DNA from: Lachnospiraceae bacterium
GTDB taxonomy: Bacteria; Bacillota; Clostridia; Lachnospirales; Lachnospiraceae
Length of the DNA stretch: 64,000 nucleotides
Assembly: GCA_017622875.1 (NCBI GenBank)
Contig: JAGAQG010000063.1
Location: 46,300-110,299 of the forward strand
Reading direction: 5' to 3'
The notes beneath the pieces were generated by a model. That model did no database searches, had not been told where the DNA came from, and saw only the letters and a list, made by a program, of their open reading frames with translations. Both the position numbers and the translations under genes were made by a program. This document shows, piece by piece, positions 6,413-37,141 of the stretch (positions are counted from its first letter, which is position 1; every line of letters starts with the position of its first letter).

Positions 6413-7414
6413 ATGAATAAGAAATTTGATCTGAAAAAACTTACCAGCTCCCGCGAAATGAGTTTGGTAATCGTATTAATTGTTTTATGTGTATTTATTC
6501 AGTTAAGAAACAGCACATTCTTACAGTTTGGAACCATTGAAGCTATGTTAAAGAACTATGCGGTTATGATGATCATGGCACTGGGAATGATGTGCGTACT
6601 GCTTACCGGCGGTATCGATATCGCAATTGGTTCCACACTTGCATTTTCAGGTATGTTCTCAGCTCTTATCATGAGAGATCATCCAGGAGTACCTGTAATT
6701 GGCGGCTTTTTAATTTCTATGGTAGTAGGTATGGTCCTTGGAGCAGTAATTGGTGTGGTTATTTCGAAAGGAAAAGTTCCGCCAATCGTAGCAACCCTTG
6801 GATTCATGAATATCTATAGAGGATGTACTTATCTGATCGCAGACAGCCGTTGGGTAGCTGCTTATCAGGTTCCGGAAGGATTCAAAGCATTTGCGCAGAG
6901 CTACTATTTAACAGGCGGCCTGCTCAATAACATGATTACAGTTATTATTATCTGCTATGTAATTTTCTTCATCGCATTAAAATGGACAACTGCTGGAAGA
7001 AGAGTTTATGCAGTAGGTTCCAATGCAGAAGCAGCAGAAGTATCAGGTATCAATGTTGACAGCGTTAAAATTGGTGTATACAGCTTGATGGGACTTTTAT
7101 CAGGTCTCGGCGGAGCTCTTTGGGTTTCCCTTTATGCATCTGCACAGGGCGATATGGCAACTGGACTTGAAATGGATGTTATCGCTGCTTGTGTAGTAGG
7201 TGGTGTAAGCTTAAATGGTGGTCGTGGTACAGTACCAGGAGTATTTTTAGGCGGACTCATTATGGCAATTATCGGAAAGGCACTTCCATTAATTGGTGTA
7301 TCACAGTTCTGGCAGAGTGCGATCAAGGGTCTGATTATTCTTTTCGCAGTCATCCTGAACGTAGTTACACAGAGAACTATGGATAAGAACGCATTGAAGA
7401 GGAGGGAAATGTAA
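6413..7414 (+). CDS. Sugar ABC transporter permease 1
   Basis: Integral membrane permease (333 residues) of the BPD_transp_2 family that goes with RbsA-like ATPases. It has eight to ten hydrophobic segments and the conserved LTGGIDIAIGS loop near residues 64-74 and the ATLGFMNIYRG segment. It starts 10 bases after the ATPase gene and its stop codon overlaps the start of the second permease. The two permeases probably form a heterodimer, as in rhamnose importers with two different permeases (RhaP/RhaQ). Confidence 0.93.
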   Translation: MNKKFDLKKLTSSREMSLVIVLIVLCVFIQLRNSTFLQFGTIEAMLKNYAVMMIMALGMMCVLLTGGIDIAIGSTLAFSGMFSALIMRDHPGVPVIGGFLISMVVGMVLGAVIGVVISKGKVPPIVATLGFMNIYRGCTYLIADSRWVAAYQVPEGFKAFAQSYYLTGGLLNNMITVIIICYVIFFIALKWTTAGRRVYAVGSNAEAAEVSGINVDSVKIGVYSLMGLLSGLGGALWVSLYASAQGDMATGLEMDVIAACVVGGVSLNGGRGTVPGVFLGGLIMAIIGKALPLIGVSQFWQSAIKGLIILFAVILNVVTQRTMDKNALKRREM

Positions 7415-8427
7415 TGGCAGGTAAATCAGGTAGAGAGATTATTGCTGAGCAGCCGTTTTCCTGGAAAACCTTTTTCTTCAAATGGGAATGGTTCCTGGTA
7501 TTAATCTTCATTTTAATCAATATTATGAACGCTAATCTTTCTCCATATTATGCGAGTGTATCTGGATTATTTACAGCTACAAACTCTTTCCTGGAGAAAG
7601 CATTCATCGCATTGCCGATGGCATACATCTTAGTACTTGGTGATATGGATATTTCCGTAGGATCTATCGCATGTATTTCAGCAGTATCATTAGCGCTGGC
7701 ATATAATGCAGGAATTCCAATGGCAGCATGTATTGTGGTTTGTCTCCTTGTTGGAACACTTTGCGGTCTGATCAATGGTCTGATCATGACAAAATTCACA
7801 GAGCTTGCGCCTATGATCGTAACACTTGGTACACAGATCCTTTACAGAGGTATTGCAGAAGGTATCTTAGGTGATACATCTTCAGGCGGACTGACAGCAG
7901 TGAAATGGTTCAGTAATCTGTACTGGGGCAAGATTGGTGTAGTACCAATCATGTTTATCGTATTTATCATCTGCGCATGTGCTTTCGGTTTTGTATTACA
8001 TAAAACAGTATTCGGCAGATGGTTATACGCAATTGGAAGCAACAAAACAGCAGCAGAATATGCAGGCATTGAAGTTCAGAAGATTCGTCTGATCGTATTT
8101 GTTCTGACTGGTCTGTTCTCAGCGGTTACAGGTGTCTTCCTTGCAGCCAGAATGGGAAGTACAAAATCTGATATTGCCACATCTTACGAAATGGAAGCGA
8201 TTTCCATGGCAGTACTTGGCGGTTTCAGTACAAATGGTGGTAAAGGTAACTTCATCGGAGTTGTTCTTGCTATCTTTATCGTAGGTTTCTTAAGATACGG
8301 TCTTGGTCTGATCAATGTTCCGGCACAGGCAATGCTCGTAATCATCGGTTTACTGCTGATCATTACAGTTATGGCTCCGAACATCAAAAATCAGATTCAG
8401 TACAGTATGAAAAAGAAAAATAAATAA
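7414..8427 (+). CDS. Sugar ABC transporter permease 2
   Basis: Second BPD_transp_2 permease, 337 residues. It carries the equivalent LGDMDISVGS loop and VTLGTQILYRG segment seen in its neighbour, but overall the two differ, as expected for RhaP/RhaQ partners. The ATG overlaps the last base of the preceding gene by one base, so translation is probably coupled. A GC-rich hairpin follows before the binding-protein gene. Confidence 0.93.
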   Translation: MAGKSGREIIAEQPFSWKTFFFKWEWFLVLIFILINIMNANLSPYYASVSGLFTATNSFLEKAFIALPMAYILVLGDMDISVGSIACISAVSLALAYNAGIPMAACIVVCLLVGTLCGLINGLIMTKFTELAPMIVTLGTQILYRGIAEGILGDTSSGGLTAVKWFSNLYWGKIGVVPIMFIVFIICACAFGFVLHKTVFGRWLYAIGSNKTAAEYAGIEVQKIRLIVFVLTGLFSAVTGVFLAARMGSTKSDIATSYEMEAISMAVLGGFSTNGGKGNFIGVVLAIFIVGFLRYGLGLINVPAQAMLVIIGLLLIITVMAPNIKNQIQYSMKKKNK

Positions 8428-8443
8428 TTCCTAATGGTACATT

Positions 8444-8465
8444 CAGTGTCGGTTGGGCGGCACTG
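8444..8465 (+). other. Intercistronic stem-loop before the binding-protein gene
   Basis: CAGTGTC and GGCACTG pair (7 bp, one G-T) around an 8-base loop between permease 2 and the lipoprotein gene. No T tract follows, so it is more likely an RNA-stability element than a terminator; such hairpins often help the binding protein be made in excess. That role is inference. Confidence 0.5.
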
Positions 8466-8511
8466 TTGTATATAAACTATTCATAATAAATAATTTAGGG
8501 AGGAAAACAAC

Positions 8512-9606
8512 ATGAAAAAAAGATTATTAAGCGCACTTTTATGTGTAGCTATGGTAGCATCTCTCGTAGTAGGATGTGGCGGAAGCAAAGAAGAAGCAGC
8601 AGCTCCAGCAGAAGAAGCAACTGAAGAAGCAGCTCCAGCAGAAGAAGCAACTGAAGAAGCAGCTCCAGCAAACGATGGAGTTTATGCATTCATCTCTAAA
8701 GCAGCAGGTAACCCATACAATGAAAAAGAAGCTGAAGGCTTCCAGACAGCTATGGATGAACTTGGACTGAACTATGTTATCAAACATCCAGAAACAGCTA
8801 CAGCTGATGCTCAGATCACAATGATCAACGAATTAGTTGCTCAGAACGTAAGCTCTATCGCTATCGCAGCTAACGATGCTGACGCTTTACAGCCAGCTCT
8901 TGAAGCAGCTATGGCAGCAGGCATTAAGATCTGTTCTGTAGACTCTTCTACAAACGCAGCTAGCCGTGCAGTTCATGTAAACCAGGCTGGTACAGCTATC
9001 ATCGGACAGACACTTATGGATGCAGTTCTTGATTTAGCAGGTGGCGAAGGCCAGTGGGCTATCCTTTCTGCAACTTCTACAGCTACAAACCAGAACTCTT
9101 GGATCGCAGCTATGAAAGAAGTTATGGAAGGCGACGCTTATGCATCTCTTGAATTAGTAGAAGTTGCTTACGGTGATGACGAATATCAGAAATCTGTAGA
9201 CCAGACACAGGCTTTATTATCTAACTATCCAGAACTTAAAGTTATCTGTGCTCCTACAACTGTAGGTATCATGGCAGCAGCTAAAGCTATCCAGGATGCT
9301 GGATCTTCTGTTAAATTAACAGGTCTCGGATTACCATCCGAAATGGCTGACTACATCGGAACTGACGATGCTCATTCTTGCCCATATATGTACTTATGGA
9401 ACCCAATCGACTTAGGTAAATTAGCAGCTTATGTTTCTGTAGCATTAGTTGACGGAACAATCACAGGAGCAGCTGGTGACACATTCACATGTGCATTAGG
9501 TGACTACGAAGTTGTTGAAGCAGCTGACGGCGGCACAGAAATCATTGCTGGACCTCCATTCGCATTCACACCAGAAAACATCGAAGAATGGAAGACAGTT
9601 TACTAA
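8512..9606 (+). CDS. Sugar-binding lipoprotein of the ABC importer
   Basis: Periplasmic-binding-protein-like lipoprotein of 364 residues with a lipoprotein signal (MKKRLLSALL...) and lipobox ending in Cys22 (VVGC). After the Cys comes a low-complexity acidic linker built from two near-identical AAPAEEATEE repeats (residues about 29-52), then a type 1 sugar-binding fold (ISKAAGNPYNEKEAEGF, SIAIAANDADAL, DSSTNAASRAVHVNQ) of the RhaS/RbsB family. Strong GGAGG ribosome site. The codon choice is very uniform (GCA, GAA, CCA), as in highly expressed genes. It completes the ABC system with the three genes upstream. Confidence 0.94.
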   Translation: MKKRLLSALLCVAMVASLVVGCGGSKEEAAAPAEEATEEAAPAEEATEEAAPANDGVYAFISKAAGNPYNEKEAEGFQTAMDELGLNYVIKHPETATADAQITMINELVAQNVSSIAIAANDADALQPALEAAMAAGIKICSVDSSTNAASRAVHVNQAGTAIIGQTLMDAVLDLAGGEGQWAILSATSTATNQNSWIAAMKEVMEGDAYASLELVEVAYGDDEYQKSVDQTQALLSNYPELKVICAPTTVGIMAAAKAIQDAGSSVKLTGLGLPSEMADYIGTDDAHSCPYMYLWNPIDLGKLAAYVSVALVDGTITGAAGDTFTCALGDYEVVEAADGGTEIIAGPPFAFTPENIEEWKTVY

Positions 9607-9677
9607 GATTTAATTCTTTAGTATAAATACAATTTCATATTTCCAATAATGAAAACGTTATGAATAGTAATGAGAGT

Positions 9678-9710
9678 ATCCTGCGGAATCCCCGCAGGAT
9701 ATTCTTGCAT
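9678..9710 (+). terminator. Hairpin after the sugar-binding protein gene
   Basis: ATCCTGCGG and CCGCAGGAT form a 9-bp GC-rich stem with a short loop, followed only by ATTCTT. A partial terminator is likely, letting some transcripts continue into the RhaM-like gene 15 bases on. Confidence 0.6.
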
Positions 9711-9724
9711 AAAAGGAGTTAAAA

Positions 9725-10372
9725 ATGTTAAGACACGCATTTGCAATGGAAGTAAAAGAAGGACAGACTGCAGCGTTTAGAAGCGGACTTGGAAAAATCT
9801 GGAGAGAATTAACAGCCTTTTTAGATGAAAAGAAAATGGTAAATTTCAGCATGTGGAATGTAGAGAGAATGGTGTTCGGATATTATGAAACAGAAGATGA
9901 CTTTGCATTTTCAGAGGCAGATAGAGAAAAGGTAAAATCATGGGAAGCGCAGTATGGAGATTTCTATACATGGATTTCTGTACCGTTTGAAGAAATGCGC
10001 CTGATGTATCATGATTTTGGGATTGTGAGAGAAAGTAAAGAACTGATCAGACACCGTGTATTTATTACCAAATTGGTACCGGGTTCTGAGGAGGAATATA
10101 AAGCACGCCATGATGCGTTGGTAGAAGCAAGAGGAGATAAGGTCACAGAAGGACCTGACAGTAACTTCTCCATCTGGAATGCAGGCGGATATATTTTTGG
10201 ATATAACGAAATTGACACTACAATGGAACGCGACCGTACAGAAGAAGACCGACAGGGGGACATTGCGTGGGAAACAAGGATGTTGGAGATCATGAGCTGG
10301 CTGACAGATGATGTGGATTGGATCACAGGTCTGTGCCATGAAAACATCCGCAGAATCTGCTGGCACAACTAA
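9725..10372 (+). CDS. Tandem RhaM-like (dimeric alpha/beta barrel) protein
   Basis: A 215-residue protein that reads as two copies of the roughly 100-residue RhaM / L-rhamnose mutarotase fold: LRHAFAMEVKEGQ...FSMWNVERMVFGYYE in the first half and IRHRVFITKLVPGSEEEYKARHDAL...FSIWNAGGYIFGYNE in the second. The second half keeps an YKARHDAL segment resembling the YERRHNLLW of true RhaM, but the Trp-Trp pair expected near the end of the domain is absent from both halves. It lies between the importer and rhaM. Function is not known to me; an epimerase/mutarotase of a related sugar acid or a regulatory pseudodimer are possible. Confidence 0.7.
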   Translation: MLRHAFAMEVKEGQTAAFRSGLGKIWRELTAFLDEKKMVNFSMWNVERMVFGYYETEDDFAFSEADREKVKSWEAQYGDFYTWISVPFEEMRLMYHDFGIVRESKELIRHRVFITKLVPGSEEEYKARHDALVEARGDKVTEGPDSNFSIWNAGGYIFGYNEIDTTMERDRTEEDRQGDIAWETRMLEIMSWLTDDVDWITGLCHENIRRICWHN

Positions 10373-10470
10373 TAGCAAAATTCCGCAATTTTTCCACAAA
10401 TATGTTTAATGTAAATCTTTTTCGAAAGGTGTATAATAAATTTATCAAATACGCATCGGAGGTATTTTAA

Positions 10471-10782
10471 ATGATCAAAGGGTTTAAAATGAAACTTTAT
10501 GAAGGACAGGAAGCAGAATACGAAAGAAGACACAATCTGCTCTGGCCTGAAATGAAAAACATGATTCATGAATACGGCGGAAAGAACTACACTATTTTTC
10601 TTGATAAAGAAACATTGACTTTGTTCGGCTATATTGAGATTGAAGATCCTGAAAAATGGGCACAGAGTGCAGATACAGCAATCAATCGTAAATGGTGGGA
10701 TTACATGGCAGACATCATGGAAACAAATCCAGACAACAGCCCGGTATGCATTGACTTACAGAATGTATTCCATTTAGATTAA
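10471..10782 (+). CDS. rhaM: L-rhamnose mutarotase
   Basis: Interconverts alpha- and beta-L-rhamnopyranose, supplying the anomer used by RhaA. The 103-residue product matches the RhaM family in length and has the catalytic block YERRHNLLWPEM (Tyr18, His22 by E. coli numbering), NYTIFLDKE, the RKWWDYM Trp pair and the ETNPDNSPV tail. A ribosome site GGAGG precedes the ATG and a TATAAT box lies at 10432-10437, so it may have its own promoter despite following the tandem RhaM-like gene. Confidence 0.93.
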   Translation: MIKGFKMKLYEGQEAEYERRHNLLWPEMKNMIHEYGGKNYTIFLDKETLTLFGYIEIEDPEKWAQSADTAINRKWWDYMADIMETNPDNSPVCIDLQNVFHLD

Positions 10783-10798
10783 TTTGTAGGAAAAGTAT

Positions 10799-10834
10799 AA
10801 AAGAGTGGAAAAGCGTCAGCTTTTCCACTCTTTT
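10799..10834. terminator. Bidirectional terminator, rhaM / AraC gene
   Basis: A perfect 16-bp stem (AAAAGAGTGGAAAAGC / GCTTTTCCACTCTTTT) with loop GTCA separates convergent genes; the T-rich 3' arm works in both directions. It overlaps the last codons of the AraC gene. Confidence 0.9.
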
Positions 10835-11685
10835 CTGTATACATAAGGCGTACAGCCTTCTCTTGCTTTAAACAAATTAATAAAATGACTGGTATGATAG
10901 ATGCCGCATTGCTCGGAAATTTCCTGCACGGTCTTTTCAGTATATTTTAAAAGATCCTTTGCATGGGATAACCGTGCAGTGATGATGTATTCCTTCAAAG
11001 TCAGTCCAGTGTATTTTTTGAATTCATGACTTAAATGAAATTTGTTAATATTCTGATATTCCGCGAGAAAATCAAGGGTCAGATCTTCTGAAAAATGCAG
11101 ATCGATGTATTTCATAACTGCTTTAATATATCCCGGAAGCAGCAGACTTGGCAGATTTCCGGTGGTGTTTTGGACGATCAGCTCCGTCAAAAGTGTATGG
11201 ATGCATTGCGAAGTCACAATGTCGGTGGTCGCACTTTTGTTTTGGTGGATATCAATTAATTGATAAAGGGTATCTTCAAAAAGCTGTGGCTGATTGATCT
11301 GGATAATCTTAAATCCATTTCTGGAAAATTCTTCAAAGTATCCCAAAGCATTTCCACCGTTAAAATGAAGCCATAAAAATTCCCAGGTGGAATCACCGGT
11401 AACCTCATAGTGATGATATTCCATACAATTAATGAAAAAACATTGCCCTTTTTTGACAGTATAAGATTGATCTTTGTAGGTGAGCTGGCCTTCGCCGGAT
11501 AGGGTGAAGACGATTAGAAAGGAATTTAAGTTTTCTCTCTCTGTAAAATAGGGCGGTCTGGTCTTAAAATATCCGACCTCCTGCAAATAGAAATAAATGG
11601 ACTTGGCGGTCTTTCCAGGGGTGTTGATAAATCGGATGGAATCCTCTGACCAGCTGCTGGAATAACGCTCTAAATATTTGTTCAT
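10816..11685 (-). CDS. AraC-family transcriptional regulator with cupin sensor
   Basis: A 289-residue regulator. Residues about 40-150 look like the AraC-type cupin arm (GEGQLTYKDQSYTVKKGQ and an INCMEYHHY segment), which binds a sugar in this family. The last hundred residues carry the paired HTH (FLAEYQNINKFHLSHEFKKYTG, then VQEISEQCGIYHTSHFINLFK). It is divergent from the fucose/arabinose-isomerase-like gene with 146 bases between starts, and is next to rhaM, so it probably controls one or both. The inducer cannot be read from sequence. Confidence 0.9.
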   Translation of the reverse strand: MNKYLERYSSSWSEDSIRFINTPGKTAKSIYFYLQEVGYFKTRPPYFTERENLNSFLIVFTLSGEGQLTYKDQSYTVKKGQCFFINCMEYHHYEVTGDSTWEFLWLHFNGGNALGYFEEFSRNGFKIIQINQPQLFEDTLYQLIDIHQNKSATTDIVTSQCIHTLLTELIVQNTTGNLPSLLLPGYIKAVMKYIDLHFSEDLTLDFLAEYQNINKFHLSHEFKKYTGLTLKEYIITARLSHAKDLLKYTEKTVQEISEQCGIYHTSHFINLFKAREGCTPYVYRKEWKS

Positions 11686-11831
11686 AACATCACCGCAAAA
11701 AACTGTTATTTATACTCAAGTTGCTTTGATGAAATTATATTGAAACTGGATTATAATGTCAATAAGAACAGTGGTTGTGGAAAGCATAAAACTGTGAAAA
11801 TGCTCGGAAACATTAAAAGGGGGAAAACACC

Positions 11832-13334
11832 ATGGAAAAATTGAAAGCAGTAAAAAAAGCACGTATTGGTATTTACACAATGGGGTTAAAGGCATACTGG
11901 AATCAGTTTGCAGGTCTTCATGACAGAATGATTGAATACGGCAAGTTTATTGAGAAAAAGGTTGCAGCAATGGAAGTAGAAGTATATAATTACGGCCTTG
12001 TTGACTGTGAAGAAGAAGGCAGAAAATGTGGAGAATATTTTAACAGAAATAATGTTGATTTAATTCTTGCACATTCCGGTACTTATGTAACAAGTGCATC
12101 TGTTCTGCCAATCCACCAGATCTGCAAAGCTCCTGCAGTTGTACTGAACTTACAGCCGACCGCAAAAATCAATTATTTAAAGACTTCTACAGGTGAATGG
12201 CTGGCACATTGCGGAGCATGTCCGGTTCCTGAACTTGCAAATGCATTCAACAGAGCAGGCATCAAATATCGTCAGGTCAATGGCCTTTTAGGTTTAGACT
12301 ATACACCGGAAATTTCCGTAACAGATGAAAATACAGCAGAAAGACCGGAAGCAATCAAAGCATGGCAGAAGATTGGTGAATGGGTAGACGCTGCAAAAGT
12401 AAAAGCGGCATTACAGCATTGCCGTTTTGGTTTCCTTGGAAACAACTACAATGGTATGCTTGACTTATATTCTGATTTTACAATGTTCTCTGCACAGACA
12501 GGCGCACATGTGGAAATCCTTGAAATGTGCGATTTGAACCGCATGCTGGAAACAGTTACTGATGAAGAAGTAGAAGAAAAGAAAAAGGAAATCGAAGAAT
12601 TCTTTATCATCAGTGATGACGTTTCTGCTGACCCATTGGCAAAGAAACCAACACCGGAACAGTTAGAATGGTCTGCAAGAGTTGCAGTAGCACAGGAAAA
12701 ACTTGTAAAAGAATTTAACTTAGATGGTCTGGCATATTACTATCACGGTGCACCAGGCGGAGATTACGAAGCAATTCAGTCAGGATTTATCGTAGGACAT
12801 TCTCTGTTAACAGCAAAAGGTATTCCATGCGCAGGTGAAGGAGACTTAAAGACTTGTGTGGCGATGAAGATTTGTGATATCCTTGGCAAAGGCGGAAGCT
12901 TCTGTGAAATCGTAGTAACAGATTATGAAGAAGGCACCATGTTACTTGGACATGACGGTCCATTCCACCTGGCAATCGCAAATGGAAAACCGTTACTCCG
13001 TGGTCTTGGCGTATATCATGGAAAACAGGGTACTGGTGTATCTGTAGAAGCAAAAGTACGTGCCGGAGATATTACAACACTCTGCTGTACACAGACAGTT
13101 GATGGAAAAATGAAATTCATCATCACAGAAGCAGAATCTACCAATGCTCAGATCATGACTATCGGAAATACACAGACTCATGTAAAATTCAAAAAAGATC
13201 CGGATTCTTACATGGATGAATGGTTTGCTGAATTCCCAACTCATCATTTCGCAATGAGCGTTGGACATAATGCATCTTTATTTGAAAAAGTAGCAGATGT
13301 TTTAGGTATTCCATCCGTAACATTGGATAAATAA
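11832..13334 (+). CDS. L-fucose/L-arabinose isomerase-family protein
   Basis: A 500-residue cytoplasmic enzyme of the fucose/arabinose isomerase fold: N-terminal Rossmann-like domain (IGIYTMGLKAYW, LILAHSGTYVTS), middle domain (FGFLGNNYNGMLDLYSDFT, typical of AraA-like proteins) and a C-terminal barrel with CAGEGDLKT and MLLGHDGPFHLA, where Glu and His metal ligands lie. The length is that of AraA and shorter than FucI (about 590). It probably isomerises an aldose in the same deoxy-sugar pathway; fucose, arabinose or another sugar cannot be told apart here. A TATAAT box at 11752-11757 lies upstream. Confidence 0.85.
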   Translation: MEKLKAVKKARIGIYTMGLKAYWNQFAGLHDRMIEYGKFIEKKVAAMEVEVYNYGLVDCEEEGRKCGEYFNRNNVDLILAHSGTYVTSASVLPIHQICKAPAVVLNLQPTAKINYLKTSTGEWLAHCGACPVPELANAFNRAGIKYRQVNGLLGLDYTPEISVTDENTAERPEAIKAWQKIGEWVDAAKVKAALQHCRFGFLGNNYNGMLDLYSDFTMFSAQTGAHVEILEMCDLNRMLETVTDEEVEEKKKEIEEFFIISDDVSADPLAKKPTPEQLEWSARVAVAQEKLVKEFNLDGLAYYYHGAPGGDYEAIQSGFIVGHSLLTAKGIPCAGEGDLKTCVAMKICDILGKGGSFCEIVVTDYEEGTMLLGHDGPFHLAIANGKPLLRGLGVYHGKQGTGVSVEAKVRAGDITTLCCTQTVDGKMKFIITEAESTNAQIMTIGNTQTHVKFKKDPDSYMDEWFAEFPTHHFAMSVGHNASLFEKVADVLGIPSVTLDK

Positions 13335-15109: not shown

Positions 15110-15269
15110 AGAAGTCCTCCGAAGATAAATAGTAGTTGTGCATCCATAAGCACAAATAATTAATATTATTATAAAATTTTCCAGAAAAAAAGTCTATGAA
15201 AAAATAAAAAAGGGGGTTGACTTTAATACGACAAAGTGGTAATTTGATAACAACATAAACATAGTAAGT

Positions 15270-15545
15270 ACAAACCGTTGAGAAAGAGTAGTAGGTTTGA
15301 TACGCAAGATCACAGAGAGCTGCAGGTGGTGGGATTGCAGTATGGAGCGTCAGATTGAATGGACTTTCGAGGGCAGGTCCGAAAGGGAAACTTAGTAGGG
15401 ACTGTCGGGAACCCGACCCGTTATCCATAGGGAGCGTATGATGGTACGTGCATAAAGTGGTCGTTCGACAAATTGAGTGGTACCGCGATTATAATTTTAC
15501 TTATAACCGTCTCAAGCAAAGATGCTTGTGGCGGATTTTTTATTT
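15270..15545 (+). promoter_or_regulatory. T-box riboswitch, tryptophan specifier (TGG)
   Basis: The 520-base gap before the TrpX-like gene holds a T-box leader. The conserved 3' T-box sequence (GAGTGGTACCGCG) is at 15475-15487. Stem I features include AGAGAGCTG and GGTGG-type loop sequence at 15314-15331, and the specifier context GAA-TGG-ACTTTCGAG, where TGG (15360-15362) occupies the codon position that pairs with the tRNA anticodon. A terminator hairpin (15507-15545; CCGTCTCAAGCA / TGCTTGTGGCGG, then T6) competes with the antiterminator. Uncharged tRNA-Trp should therefore turn on the downstream transporter. A TTGACT at 15217-15222 may be the -35 box; the -10 is not clear. Confidence 0.9.
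15507..15545 (+). terminator. Regulated terminator of the T-box leader
   Basis: A 12-bp stem (CCGTCTCAAGCA / TGCTTGTGGCGG, with one mismatch-type G-T position) and T6 tail directly after the T-box sequence. It ends transcription when charged tRNA-Trp is abundant. Confidence 0.88.
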
Positions 15546-31898: not shown

Positions 31899-33488
31899 TC
31901 AAGATTCCATTTGATGATAGATCACACCTGCGTTTGCGGTTAAAATCGTAGCAGCATATTCAGCGGCGATTTTAAATGAGGAACAAACTACATCAACTGA
32001 ATCTAAAATTCCAGCTTCTCTAAAATCTGTAAATTGCTGATTTTTGGCATCAAATCCCCAAAAAGGTTTGTCAGTACATTCTAACAAAGAAGAAACAATA
32101 TAGCTACCATTCGCCCCGGCATTCTGCGCGATATGGTAAGCAGGAGCACAAAGCGCTGCTTTAATACAAAGTCCTCCCATTTTTTCCTCTTCACTGCCTG
32201 AAGAAATCAGTTGTTCAATGACTGGAATTGCCTGCAAATAGGACTTTCCGCCACCAGCTGTAACACCGGAATTCAGTGCTGAATAAACTGCCTGAACAGC
32301 ATTTTCAATCTGGAACTGATTTTCAAACATTTCGTATTCTGTAGTACCTCCGGCAACAACTGTTACTGTACAGCCATTTAAGATTGCCTGTGTCTGTTTC
32401 AATTTCTCTATTTCATAATCTGCATCTGTTTTGGAAAGCAGATTTTTTACATAGTTTTTCAGATATCCAACAATTTCTCTGTTTTCTTTAGGAAATCCTT
32501 TGATCAAAGTGGTGTCTTTTCCAAGGCAGACGGATTCTGCAAATCCGCAAATTTCCAATCCGCAGTCTTTTAATTCCAGTCCGTTGTATTCATCAATTAA
32601 GGCAGCGCCGGTTTTGGCTGCGAGCGCAAGCATGTTTCTGCGTCTGGTATCTCCGTGACCAGGACCGAGGCCAACCACTACATTGAGGACTTTATGATGA
32701 ATATTATTTGCCAGGATTTTTACCAGGCGTTCATCAATGTCTTCTGCAATGATCAATAGAGGCATTCTCTTACGAATCAGTTGATTTAAAAGCTTCTCCA
32801 GTTCAGAAAAATCCTTCAGTTCCCGGTTCACTAATAAAATATAAGTATTTTCCAGAACTGCCTGTTTTTTCTCAGGTATATTTACAAATATACTGGATGC
32901 ATAGCCGTAATCGTAGCGTATTCCTTCGCTGATTTCCAGTCGGTTTTCCAGTTCCTGACTGTCTGTTACGGTGATGATTCCGTCAGAACCAACGATTTTA
33001 AATGCTTCAGCAACCAAATGTCCGATTTCCACGCTGTCAGCAGCAATTGTGGCAACATTTTCTGCGACTTTCAGTGAATCAACGGGGATTGCCATTTTAT
33101 GAATCAATTGTTCTGCCACTGGAATTGCTTTTTTGATTCCTTTGCGTAGCTGAATTGGATTGACACCAGAAGCAATGAGCCTTCGTCCTTCTTCGATCAT
33201 GGCATTTGCCATAATAACCGTGGCAATGGTACCATCGCCATTTAATTTGTTTGCACGTAAAGCGGCGTCTTTTAAAGTAGAAGCCCCTAGATTTTTTGCA
33301 TGATCTATTAGAGAAAAATCTGCCAGAATCTTCTTTCCGGCATTTACGATCAACGCAATATCATGCTCCTGATCAAAGATTGTATTTCGTCCATTTGGGC
33401 CATAATTGGGTGCCAGTATATCTGCCAGTGCATTGACTCCGGCTGCCAGTTCATTTAATAGATCAGAATCTGCAACTATTCTTGCCAT
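31899..33488 (-). CDS. Divergent GroEL paralogue
   Basis: A 529-residue group I chaperonin homologue: equatorial GPNGRNTIF, NGDGTIAT (P-loop equivalent, keeps the D87 homologue as D85), apical region PLLIIAEDID and GPGHGDTRRRNML, and C-terminal VTAGGG. By eye against E. coli GroEL, D52 is Ala50, D398 is Asn396, K51 is Asn49, and apical L234, Y203 and V264 are Glu, Ile and Asn. The Gly-Gly-Met tail is missing, and no groES adjoins it. ATP turnover should be slow or lost and GroES binding is doubtful. It follows the TetR gene by 19 bases as an operon. A dedicated chaperone for neighbouring methyltransferases is only a hypothesis. Confidence 0.85.
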   Translation of the reverse strand: MARIVADSDLLNELAAGVNALADILAPNYGPNGRNTIFDQEHDIALIVNAGKKILADFSLIDHAKNLGASTLKDAALRANKLNGDGTIATVIMANAMIEEGRRLIASGVNPIQLRKGIKKAIPVAEQLIHKMAIPVDSLKVAENVATIAADSVEIGHLVAEAFKIVGSDGIITVTDSQELENRLEISEGIRYDYGYASSIFVNIPEKKQAVLENTYILLVNRELKDFSELEKLLNQLIRKRMPLLIIAEDIDERLVKILANNIHHKVLNVVVGLGPGHGDTRRRNMLALAAKTGAALIDEYNGLELKDCGLEICGFAESVCLGKDTTLIKGFPKENREIVGYLKNYVKNLLSKTDADYEIEKLKQTQAILNGCTVTVVAGGTTEYEMFENQFQIENAVQAVYSALNSGVTAGGGKSYLQAIPVIEQLISSGSEEEKMGGLCIKAALCAPAYHIAQNAGANGSYIVSSLLECTDKPFWGFDAKNQQFTDFREAGILDSVDVVCSSFKIAAEYAATILTANAGVIYHQMES

Positions 33489-33507
33489 TTTCTGTTCTCC
33501 CTTGTGT

Positions 33508-34161
33508 TTATTCTTTCATCCCTAATTCTGAGGCAATCTCAGATAGTAATTCATCAGTGATTGAGGCCCCTACTTCTGGGATCAATTTTTCTAAATTATC
33601 GATAGGTATGTTCATATCCTGCAAAGAATTGGTTACTTTCATTTGGTAGGTAAATGCCTCTGTCAGAGACATTTTTCCTGTGATATAAAAGTTGACCAGA
33701 GAAATATGAACATCGGAAATGATGATTTGTGCATGATTTTCTTCATCATAAGTAAGGTTTAAGTTTTCAAATAAAAACCAGCTGCTCATTTTATAGTATC
33801 TGCAAATGATGGCATTAAATGCCTGTGCGTGGCTGTTTCGGAATTCAAAACAAAAATTTGCAAACCCCTTATATTTATTCATGAACTGATAATGCAAAAT
33901 CCAGTAGAATAAATAACGAAAATATGGATTTTCCTCATTTTTTTGATATTTACTCCTTAAAGCAATAATACTTTTATATCTGTTAATCAGCGTTTCTGCA
34001 ATTTCCTGTTTGCTGGAAAAATGCATATAGATTGCTTCGTGAGAAATCCCTACTTTTTTGGCAAGCTTCCTGATAGAAAGATTATTGTAGCCGATTTCAC
34101 AAAATTCTTCCAATGCGCATTCCTGAATTCTTTTTTGTGTATCTCCCTTTGGTCTTCCCAT
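33508..34161 (-). CDS. TetR-family transcriptional regulator
   Basis: A 217-residue regulator with N-terminal HTH (RIQECALEEFCEIGYNNLSIRKLAKKVGISHEAIYMHFSSK in order of helices) and a divergent ligand domain. First gene of an operon with the GroEL paralogue. Its own promoter carries a small palindrome that may be an autoregulatory operator. The nearby corrinoid operon is another likely target. Confidence 0.9.
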   Translation of the reverse strand: MGRPKGDTQKRIQECALEEFCEIGYNNLSIRKLAKKVGISHEAIYMHFSSKQEIAETLINRYKSIIALRSKYQKNEENPYFRYLFYWILHYQFMNKYKGFANFCFEFRNSHAQAFNAIICRYYKMSSWFLFENLNLTYDEENHAQIIISDVHISLVNFYITGKMSLTEAFTYQMKVTNSLQDMNIPIDNLEKLIPEVGASITDELLSEIASELGMKE

Positions 34162-34190: not shown

Positions 34191-34232
34191 ATCATATATG
34201 AAAGTATTTTCTAATGTCAAGCATACCATGGT
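34191..34232 (-). promoter_or_regulatory. Promoter of the TetR-GroEL operon with palindrome
   Basis: Minus-strand TTGACA (34215-34220), 18-base spacer, TATGAT (34191-34196). Directly upstream of the -35 box is ACCATGGT (34225-34232) in a larger imperfect palindrome, a possible operator. Confidence 0.65.
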
Positions 34233-34255
34233 GTTAAGATAAATCATGAAATAAT

Positions 34256-34303
34256 TACAGTGCAGAAGGAAAAATCGGAGAGTGATCAATCCTCTGCACT
34301 GTA
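34256..34303. repeat. Inverted repeat between the methyltransferase operon and the TetR gene
   Basis: TACAGTGCAGAAGGA (34256-34270) and TCCTCTGCACTGTA (34290-34303) pair with one extra base, enclosing 19 bases. It lies after the 42-residue ORF, so it may end the methyltransferase operon, though the T tract on the minus strand is weak (AATTATTT). Confidence 0.55.
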
Positions 34304-34313
34304 AAAAGAGATA

Positions 34314-37093: not shown

Positions 37094-37141
37094 AATTACC
37101 TTGGTAATTAAAATATATCATAATTAAATTACCAGTGTCAA
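37094..37141 (-). promoter_or_regulatory. Promoter and operator of the corrinoid operon
   Basis: Minus-strand TTGACA (37136-37141), 18 bases and TATATT (37112-37117). A palindrome AATTACC-TT-GGTAATT (37094-37109) covers the likely start of transcription and one half-site AATTACC (37127-37133) overlaps the spacer. This looks like a repressor site, perhaps for the TetR protein nearby. Confidence 0.7.

Follow-up and report, generated by a model that had tools for sequence, protein, structure and literature searches.

A diverged GroEL paralogue with altered ATP-site aspartates beside a corrinoid methyltransferase locus in a Lachnospiraceae bacterium

We analyzed a stretch of 64,000 nucleotides (hereafter the window) from contig JAGAQG010000063.1 of a Lachnospiraceae bacterium (assembly GCA_017622875.1), and found that it carries an intact but strongly diverged GroEL paralogue, here called the window chaperonin, in which two aspartates of the ATP site, E. 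coli D52 and D398, are replaced. GroEL is the standard example of a folding machine powered by ATP, and a canonical copy is encoded elsewhere in the same genome. The window chaperonin instead lies behind a TetR-family regulator gene and next to genes for a corrinoid methyltransferase system. The account that we regard as best supported, with about an even chance of being right, is a chaperonin that has a dedicated role or a restricted set of clients and whose ATP hydrolysis is crippled.

An intact chaperonin with an eroded ATP pocket

The open reading frame (ORF) of the window chaperonin is intact, and its product matched PF00118 (Cpn60_TCP1) at 182.9 bits (cut-off 34.3) over positions 1-483 of the 490 in the profile, which bears out a preliminary description of this DNA that had reported a 529-residue group I chaperonin. 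It aligned over almost its full length with GroEL chains in the PDB (top match 4v4o, E = 1.6e-102), with no large gaps across any of the three domains in the GroEL alignments. Among the NCBIfam GroEL models, NF009487 gave 412.7 bits (cut-off 352), NF000592 391.8 bits (cut-off 397) and the equivalog TIGR02348 385.6 bits (cut-off 582.1). The protein is 35% identical to the canonical GroEL of its own genome and 34-38% identical to 16 single-copy canonical GroELs.

A MAFFT alignment of the window chaperonin with E. coli GroEL (L057) and the own-genome GroEL (L001) placed A50, N396, D85 and D496 at E. coli D52, D398, D87 and D495, respectively. The replacement of the first two aspartates by Ala50 and Asn396, and the retention of the D87 equivalent as Asp85, had already been read from an alignment by eye, and alignment with GroEL structures recovered Asp at neither the D52 nor the D398 position. 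A realignment that would recover both aspartates is ruled out, because flanking motifs anchor the two sites without gaps. The D52/D398 double alanine mutant of GroEL has a very slow ATPase, for which our literature search found no confirming paper. D52, D398 and D87 are Asp in all 26 canonical-type rows, namely E. coli, the own-genome copy, the 16 single copies and eight second copies with groES. The same three positions and D495 are Asp in all 43 viral chaperonins that were aligned, drawn from 80 of 586 confirmed loci. In E. coli GroEL, the D398A change alone is reported to lower the ATPase to about 2% of wild type and to slow client release (PMC3813556).

Four more invariant residues of the ATP pocket are changed in the window chaperonin (T30N, T90I, T91A and S151A), and the Gly-Asp-Gly motif with D87, G414-G415 and D495 is retained. 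At the invariant sites that we take to be ATP contacts in GroEL structures, it retains 10 of 16, compared with 73 of 154 invariant sites elsewhere (p 0.30). Counting D52 and D398 among the 16 favours the contrast between copies with and without both aspartates; a recount that omits the two gives 10 of 14 (p 0.10). We therefore dropped the view that the pocket is unprotected as a whole. As read from the alignment, its erosion reaches past D52 and D398, but the pocket remains in part. Since T30, T90, T91 and S151 are changed in addition to the two aspartates, impaired ATP hydrolysis is a fair prediction for this protein.

The apical face is altered as well. At the eight residues that we take to be the classical contacts with clients and GroES, the window chaperonin has Y I F E L V A N and E. 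coli has Y Y F L L L V V, so that three are identical, three conservative and two polar (L234E and V264N). The preliminary description correctly gave Ile, Glu and Asn at Y203, L234 and V264; its statement that the GroES-site residues are lost overstates the change to the whole face, because six of the eight positions stay hydrophobic or aromatic. The apical face thus appears to be lost only in part. The Gly-Gly-Met (GGM) tail, also described as missing, was absent in the MAFFT alignment.

The second Cpn60 gene of the genome is located on another contig in a normal groES-groEL pair, with a perfect CIRCE (controlling inverted repeat of chaperone expression) upstream (L001 1042-1068). Within the window, by contrast, there was no GroES at E<=1, in line with the earlier remark that the gene has no groES neighbour, and no CIRCE with up to three mismatches. 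In comparison with canonical GroEL (E. coli groL and the genome's own groEL), the window chaperonin therefore shares the fold family, length, three domains, D87, G414-G415 and D495, whereas it lacks D52, D398, T30, T90, T91, S151, the GGM tail, and a groES or CIRCE in the window.

We found no close relative of the window chaperonin in the genome contig collection by exact 8-mers. At E<=1e-102 it matched itself alone in 295 genomes of the order and 398 of the phylum, and its sole other match in 397 genomes of the family was a canonical groESL in G272 (38% identity); these draws overlap, all are samples, and the genus is represented by one genome. In 200 family genomes the TetR protein matched only itself at E<=1e-12 and the neighbouring URO-D protein matched only itself at the limit set, with an empty genome contig scan for the latter. 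Among the matches listed, the top identity to the window chaperonin was 35.5% in phage records (8 of 210), 35.9% in plasmid records (8 of 1313) and 37% in viral contigs (80 loci of 586 confirmed), and no phage or plasmid record reached 60%. An origin from a phage or plasmid is thus unsupported, the mobile-element identities (35.5-37%) being no closer than those of canonical GroELs (34-38%).

GroELs without groES in the family

Based on a PF00118 search of the 397 family genomes, 38 contained at least two Cpn60 matches; 35 of these were re-searched, with G088, G234 and G274 (completeness 61-79%) omitted, and 22 second copies were retrieved. The census covered genomes with two or more matches and not single-match genomes, and it left out second copies with canonical-like scores (G098, G134, G154, G254, G340 and G369) as well as split or partial matches (G118, G121, G159, G264, G269, G308 and G395). 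Absence of groES was judged by searching stretches of 11-20 kb, some of which end near the gene, for matches to a single canonical GroES (E<=1e-5). Eight second copies (L049-L056) adjoin groES. At least 11 full-length GroELs, the window chaperonin and L035-L044, are groES-less by this test, a number that excludes L045 (Cpn10-like gene nearby), L046 (one internal stop) and the fragments L047 and L048.

Both D52 and D398 are gone in four of the 11: the window chaperonin (A/N), L036 (S/S), L037 (S/Q) and L042 (N/N). One is gone in two more (L035, D/N; L039, S/D), and both are present in L038, L040, L041, L043 and L044, while D87 is present in every one of the 11. In the five copies with both aspartates, 13 or 14 of the other 14 pocket invariants are present (p 0.006-0.069). 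L036, with Ser at both positions, holds 13 (p 0.002), and L037 holds 12, with 11 each in L042, L035 and L039 (p 0.15-0.55 for these four). Erosion of the apical face alone does not make the window chaperonin special, because the face is also changed in copies with D52 and D398 intact: the window chaperonin keeps the canonical consensus at two of the eight apical positions, compared with two in L043, three in L044 and four in L040.

L035-L044 are 28-32% identical to the window chaperonin. In a tree of 38 rows (canonical rows from even-numbered L004-L032 plus L034; L046 omitted), L035, L037 and L039-L044 formed one group with moderate support (85/91), within which L035 and L037 were sisters (100/100). 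The states of D52 and D398 differ inside this eight-copy group, between the two sisters included, so the aspartate losses in the family were probably separate events. The window chaperonin, L036 and L045 sit on very long branches, and the joins of the window chaperonin with L036 and of L039 with L042 are possibly false. We do not infer any kinship for the window chaperonin, because the long branches make its placement and that of L036 uncertain.

All eight loci of the tree group (L035, L037 and L039-L044; for example, L040 6147-11223) share a gene cluster composed of the groES-less GroEL, a protein with only the trigger-factor C-domain, a PanB-like enzyme, a LuxR-type regulator and a short-chain dehydrogenase/reductase (SDR) of either of two types. 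Like the window chaperonin, L035-L044 have metabolic neighbours and no groES found, and L036, L037 and L042 share with it the loss of both aspartates; unlike these eight loci, the window lacks the cluster, since queries with its trigger-factor-C, PanB-like, LuxR and SDR proteins gave no match there at E<=1e-4. Between L035 and L037 the PanB proteins are 94.8% identical and the GroELs 60%, and the chaperonin therefore evolves faster than its putative client. A literature search on a PanB/trigger-factor-C GroEL cluster returned nothing related.

Further neighbours stand out at several loci. The L042 GroEL (7503-10838), with D52N and D398N, is directly divergent from a RACo gene whose product is 41% identical to the RACo of the window, with URO-D, FTHFS and FTCD_C genes nearby; it nonetheless belongs to the PanB group. 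The very diverged L036 GroEL (7166-12060) is flanked by genes for an HpcH/HpaI aldolase and an NMT1-like protein, and a Glt symporter is encoded close by. At L038 (9089-13747), a groES-less GroEL with an intact ATP pocket is found near AnfO (PF09582) and an HMGL-like gene, neighbours from which it is possibly dedicated to Fe-only nitrogenase; literature titles included no report of a GroEL linked in this way to AnfO or Fe-only nitrogenase. The L045 chaperonin (9236-11721; 27% identical) is surrounded by genes that look phage-like by eye and has a weak Cpn10-like ORF, just below the Pfam cut-off, 0.5 kb downstream. The broken or partial second copies L046 (4611-6170), L047 and L048, with one internal stop or only a C-terminal piece, indicate that such paralogues can decay.

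A dedicated chaperonin and the alternatives

If the window chaperonin is dedicated, this group I paralogue would have left general folding service. It would likely be produced on a TetR-type signal and not upon heat shock, and any GroES that it used would have to come from the canonical operon. With the fold and part of the nucleotide pocket kept and the hydrolysis-driving residues gone, a long-dwell or passive mode would be most likely, in which one or few clients are bound and then held or allowed to assemble, with no ATP-timed cycle. The nearest candidate clients would be the neighbouring corrinoid methyltransferase proteins. By analogy, a dedicated role is supported by the recurrence of diverged, groES-less GroELs near metabolic genes in the family.

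Several observations weigh against this account. Slow hydrolysis is possible, because D87 and 10 of the 14 other pocket invariants remain, and no relative with conserved linkage turned up in the collections searched. In addition, the corrinoid tie is weak: the genes are seen as neighbours in a single genome, where a hairpin and a separate promoter-like site lie between them (Table 1). RACo was mapped in 13 genomes (11 of which carry a groES-less chaperonin), and it lies within 10 kb of that chaperonin only in G000 and G361 (2/11, or 1/10 without the window), which is a lower bound as some contigs end nearby; G019, G318 and G323 were RACo-free in this mapping. The second of these RACo-near chaperonins is itself a member of the PanB/trigger-factor-C cluster, and no report of a GroEL with corrinoid methyltransferases was found among titles and abstract beginnings of the open-access papers searched. 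A slow-cycling chaperone dedicated to the adjacent corrinoid enzymes had been proposed earlier; impaired hydrolysis survives from that idea as a prediction and the dedicated role by analogy, whereas the specific tie to corrinoid enzymes is not supported. That the client is something other than these enzymes, with the adjacency due to chance, is a plausible alternative, although we place it somewhat below an even chance, and it overlaps with the dedicated-chaperonin account, which leaves the client open. The boundary formed by the hairpin and the gene's own promoter-like site, the lack of a shared operator and the RACo counts all favour such a client. On the other hand, the groES-less relatives in the family adjoin metabolic genes, and the neighbours are for that reason a sensible first guess. 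Nor would a transcription unit of its own rule out a dedicated role, because in the soluble methane monooxygenase (sMMO) cluster, as described in PMC9324122, a terminator and a promoter are likewise predicted in the mmoZ-mmoD interval. We treat the corrinoid enzymes as the first hypothesis to test, not as a result.

The remaining alternatives concern what the protein does. It could act as a modulating subunit that enters mixed rings with the canonical GroEL of the same genome, which would be slowed or retuned once TetR is relieved, given that a subunit that binds but does not hydrolyze ATP could poison or pace a ring. We consider this unlikely: the two proteins are just 35% identical, the ring-ring positions 452, 461 and 464 are Y, N and Y in the window chaperonin and F, E and V in the canonical partner, and bacterial chaperonins prefer homo-oligomers according to a review (PMC5904260). 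It is also improbable, in our estimate, that only the fold has been kept for a moonlighting or binding function, such as ligand sensing with TetR or scaffolding. Pocket decay past both aspartates, two changes to polar residues within the client groove (L234E and V264N) and a very long branch (5.27 changes per column) would fit such a change, and the same review states that M. tuberculosis GroEL1, which forms lower oligomers, evolved to bind nucleic acids (PMC5904260); the six hydrophobic or aromatic apical contacts and the alignment of all three domains without large gaps speak for a working chaperonin instead. A copy on its way to becoming a pseudogene appears very unlikely, although extreme divergence, the missing catalytic residues and the broken or partial second copies in other genomes (L046, L047 and L048) point in that direction, as does a load of 32 rare codons per 1000, the highest of 13 genes measured, compared with 0 per 1000 in the canonical GroEL. 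This load favours modest expression. Against decay, 529 codons stay free of stops at 35% identity, a regulator gene adjoins, and a GGGAG-type ribosome site precedes the gene. Moreover, identity to the canonical consensus climbs with column conservation (0.16, 0.26, 0.37 and 0.49 in four bins), as expected under continued constraint. The open frame, the conservation gradient and the ribosome site together argue against a neutral relic.

Dedicated chaperonins as such are already known, and the window chaperonin would be a strongly eroded variant of them. MmoG is a GroEL-like protein of sMMO clusters that lack a standard GroES, with a proposed role there (PMC9324122). It resembles the window chaperonin in having no standard GroES in the cluster and in that its gene lies among those of metabolic enzymes that possibly depend on it; unlike in the window, its linkage is conserved, because it is found in diverse sMMO clusters (PMC9324122). 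In Clostridia, three strains are reported to carry a groEL-like gene close to the gbu cluster, a finding that led to a chaperone pair which proved necessary; E. timonensis lacks this linkage, and its groES/groEL-like pair enabled the gbu pathway at 37 C, which five plasmids encoding E. coli chaperones failed to do (PMC10653785). Here too a Clostridial GroEL-like protein is tied to an anaerobic pathway, but the linkage occurs in three strains and the chaperonin is used with its own groES-like gene, whereas the window has the linkage once and no groES. The chlamydial GroEL2 and GroEL3 are extra GroELs encoded away from groES (PMC5904260), with differences reported at their ATP and GroES regions (PMC1892554). 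The window chaperonin likewise has no adjoining groES; it scored just 118.4 and 143.8 bits with the NCBIfam GroEL2 and GroEL3 exception models (cut-off 600).

A broader proposal, which we put forward tentatively and think rather doubtful, is that the window chaperonin belongs to a class of GroELs that arose by convergence and that bind but barely hydrolyze nucleotide, that is, timer-less cages that would each serve one set of metabolic enzymes under a metabolic regulator and not under heat-shock control. D52 and D398 would then have been given up more than once in one family with D87 always kept, and L036 would be the clearest other case. Intact natural copies that have lost both hydrolysis residues would reveal which functions are left to a chaperonin once its timer is gone, as counterparts to engineered mutants of the D398A type. 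To judge from the gbu and sMMO systems, identification of the clients would also aid the production of anaerobic enzymes that are hard to obtain.

The TetR-chaperonin pair and the corrinoid locus

The TetR gene begins the pair and ends 19 nucleotides upstream of the chaperonin gene on the same strand, which is consistent with the TetR operon of the preliminary description. The pair seems, from its flanking signals, to be a transcription unit of its own (Table 1). Promoter-like sites in the region numbered 24, compared with 19.6 +/- 4.1 in shuffles, and are thus near chance. The hairpin upstream of the pair has a predicted fold of -25.8 kcal/mol (z -5.5); its T run is weak, and it is missing from a terminator scan limited to loops of 8, its own loop being longer. 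A TetR operator common to the tetR and methyltransferase promoters was rejected, as the best shared 16-mer scored 13 and shuffles gave a mean of 12.1 and a maximum of 15.

Table 1. Features of the TetR-chaperonin pair and the adjacent corrinoid methyltransferase locus (window coordinates)
Feature	Position	Strand	Remarks
Diverged group I chaperonin paralogue, 529 aa	31899..33488	-	Intact frame; A50, N396, D85 at E. coli D52, D398, D87; GGM tail absent
TetR-family regulator, 217 aa	33508..34161	-	PF00440, 44 bits; presumed same transcript as chaperonin
Promoter-like site TTGACA-18-TATGAT before TetR-chaperonin	34191..34220	-	11/12, consensus match only
Hairpin between methyltransferase operon and TetR	34255..34304	-	12-bp fully complementary arms; terminator-like
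Short ORF, 42 aa	34314..34442	-	GGAGG ribosome site; closes methyltransferase operon, before hairpin
URO-D-type methyltransferase, 381 aa	34458..35603	-	PF01208
Methyltetrahydrofolate:corrinoid methyltransferase (MeTr), 269 aa	35616..36425	-	PF00809; NF005719 above cut-off
Corrinoid protein, MtgC/MtbC-like, 211 aa	36436..37071	-	PF02310, PF02607; NF047995, NF041607 below cut-off
Promoter-like site TTGACA-18-TATATT of methyltransferase operon	37102..37141	-	Consensus match; overlapped by imperfect palindrome
RACo-type corrinoid reductive activase, 498 aa	37270..38766	+	PF14574, PF17651; divergent from methyltransferase operon
DUF2284 metal-binding protein, 187 aa	38744..39307	+	PF10050; divergent from methyltransferase operon

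The domain matches of the neighbouring genes agree with the corrinoid methyltransferase system recognized there earlier. The URO-D protein showed a remote match, far below the cut-off, to methylcobalamin:coenzyme M methyltransferase. An imperfect palindrome, TGGTAATTAAAATATATCATAATTAAATTACCA (window 37102-37134), extends across the -10 region of the methyltransferase operon and is a candidate operator. Elsewhere in the window, a T-box leader was found at 15269-15517 with 108.2 bits.

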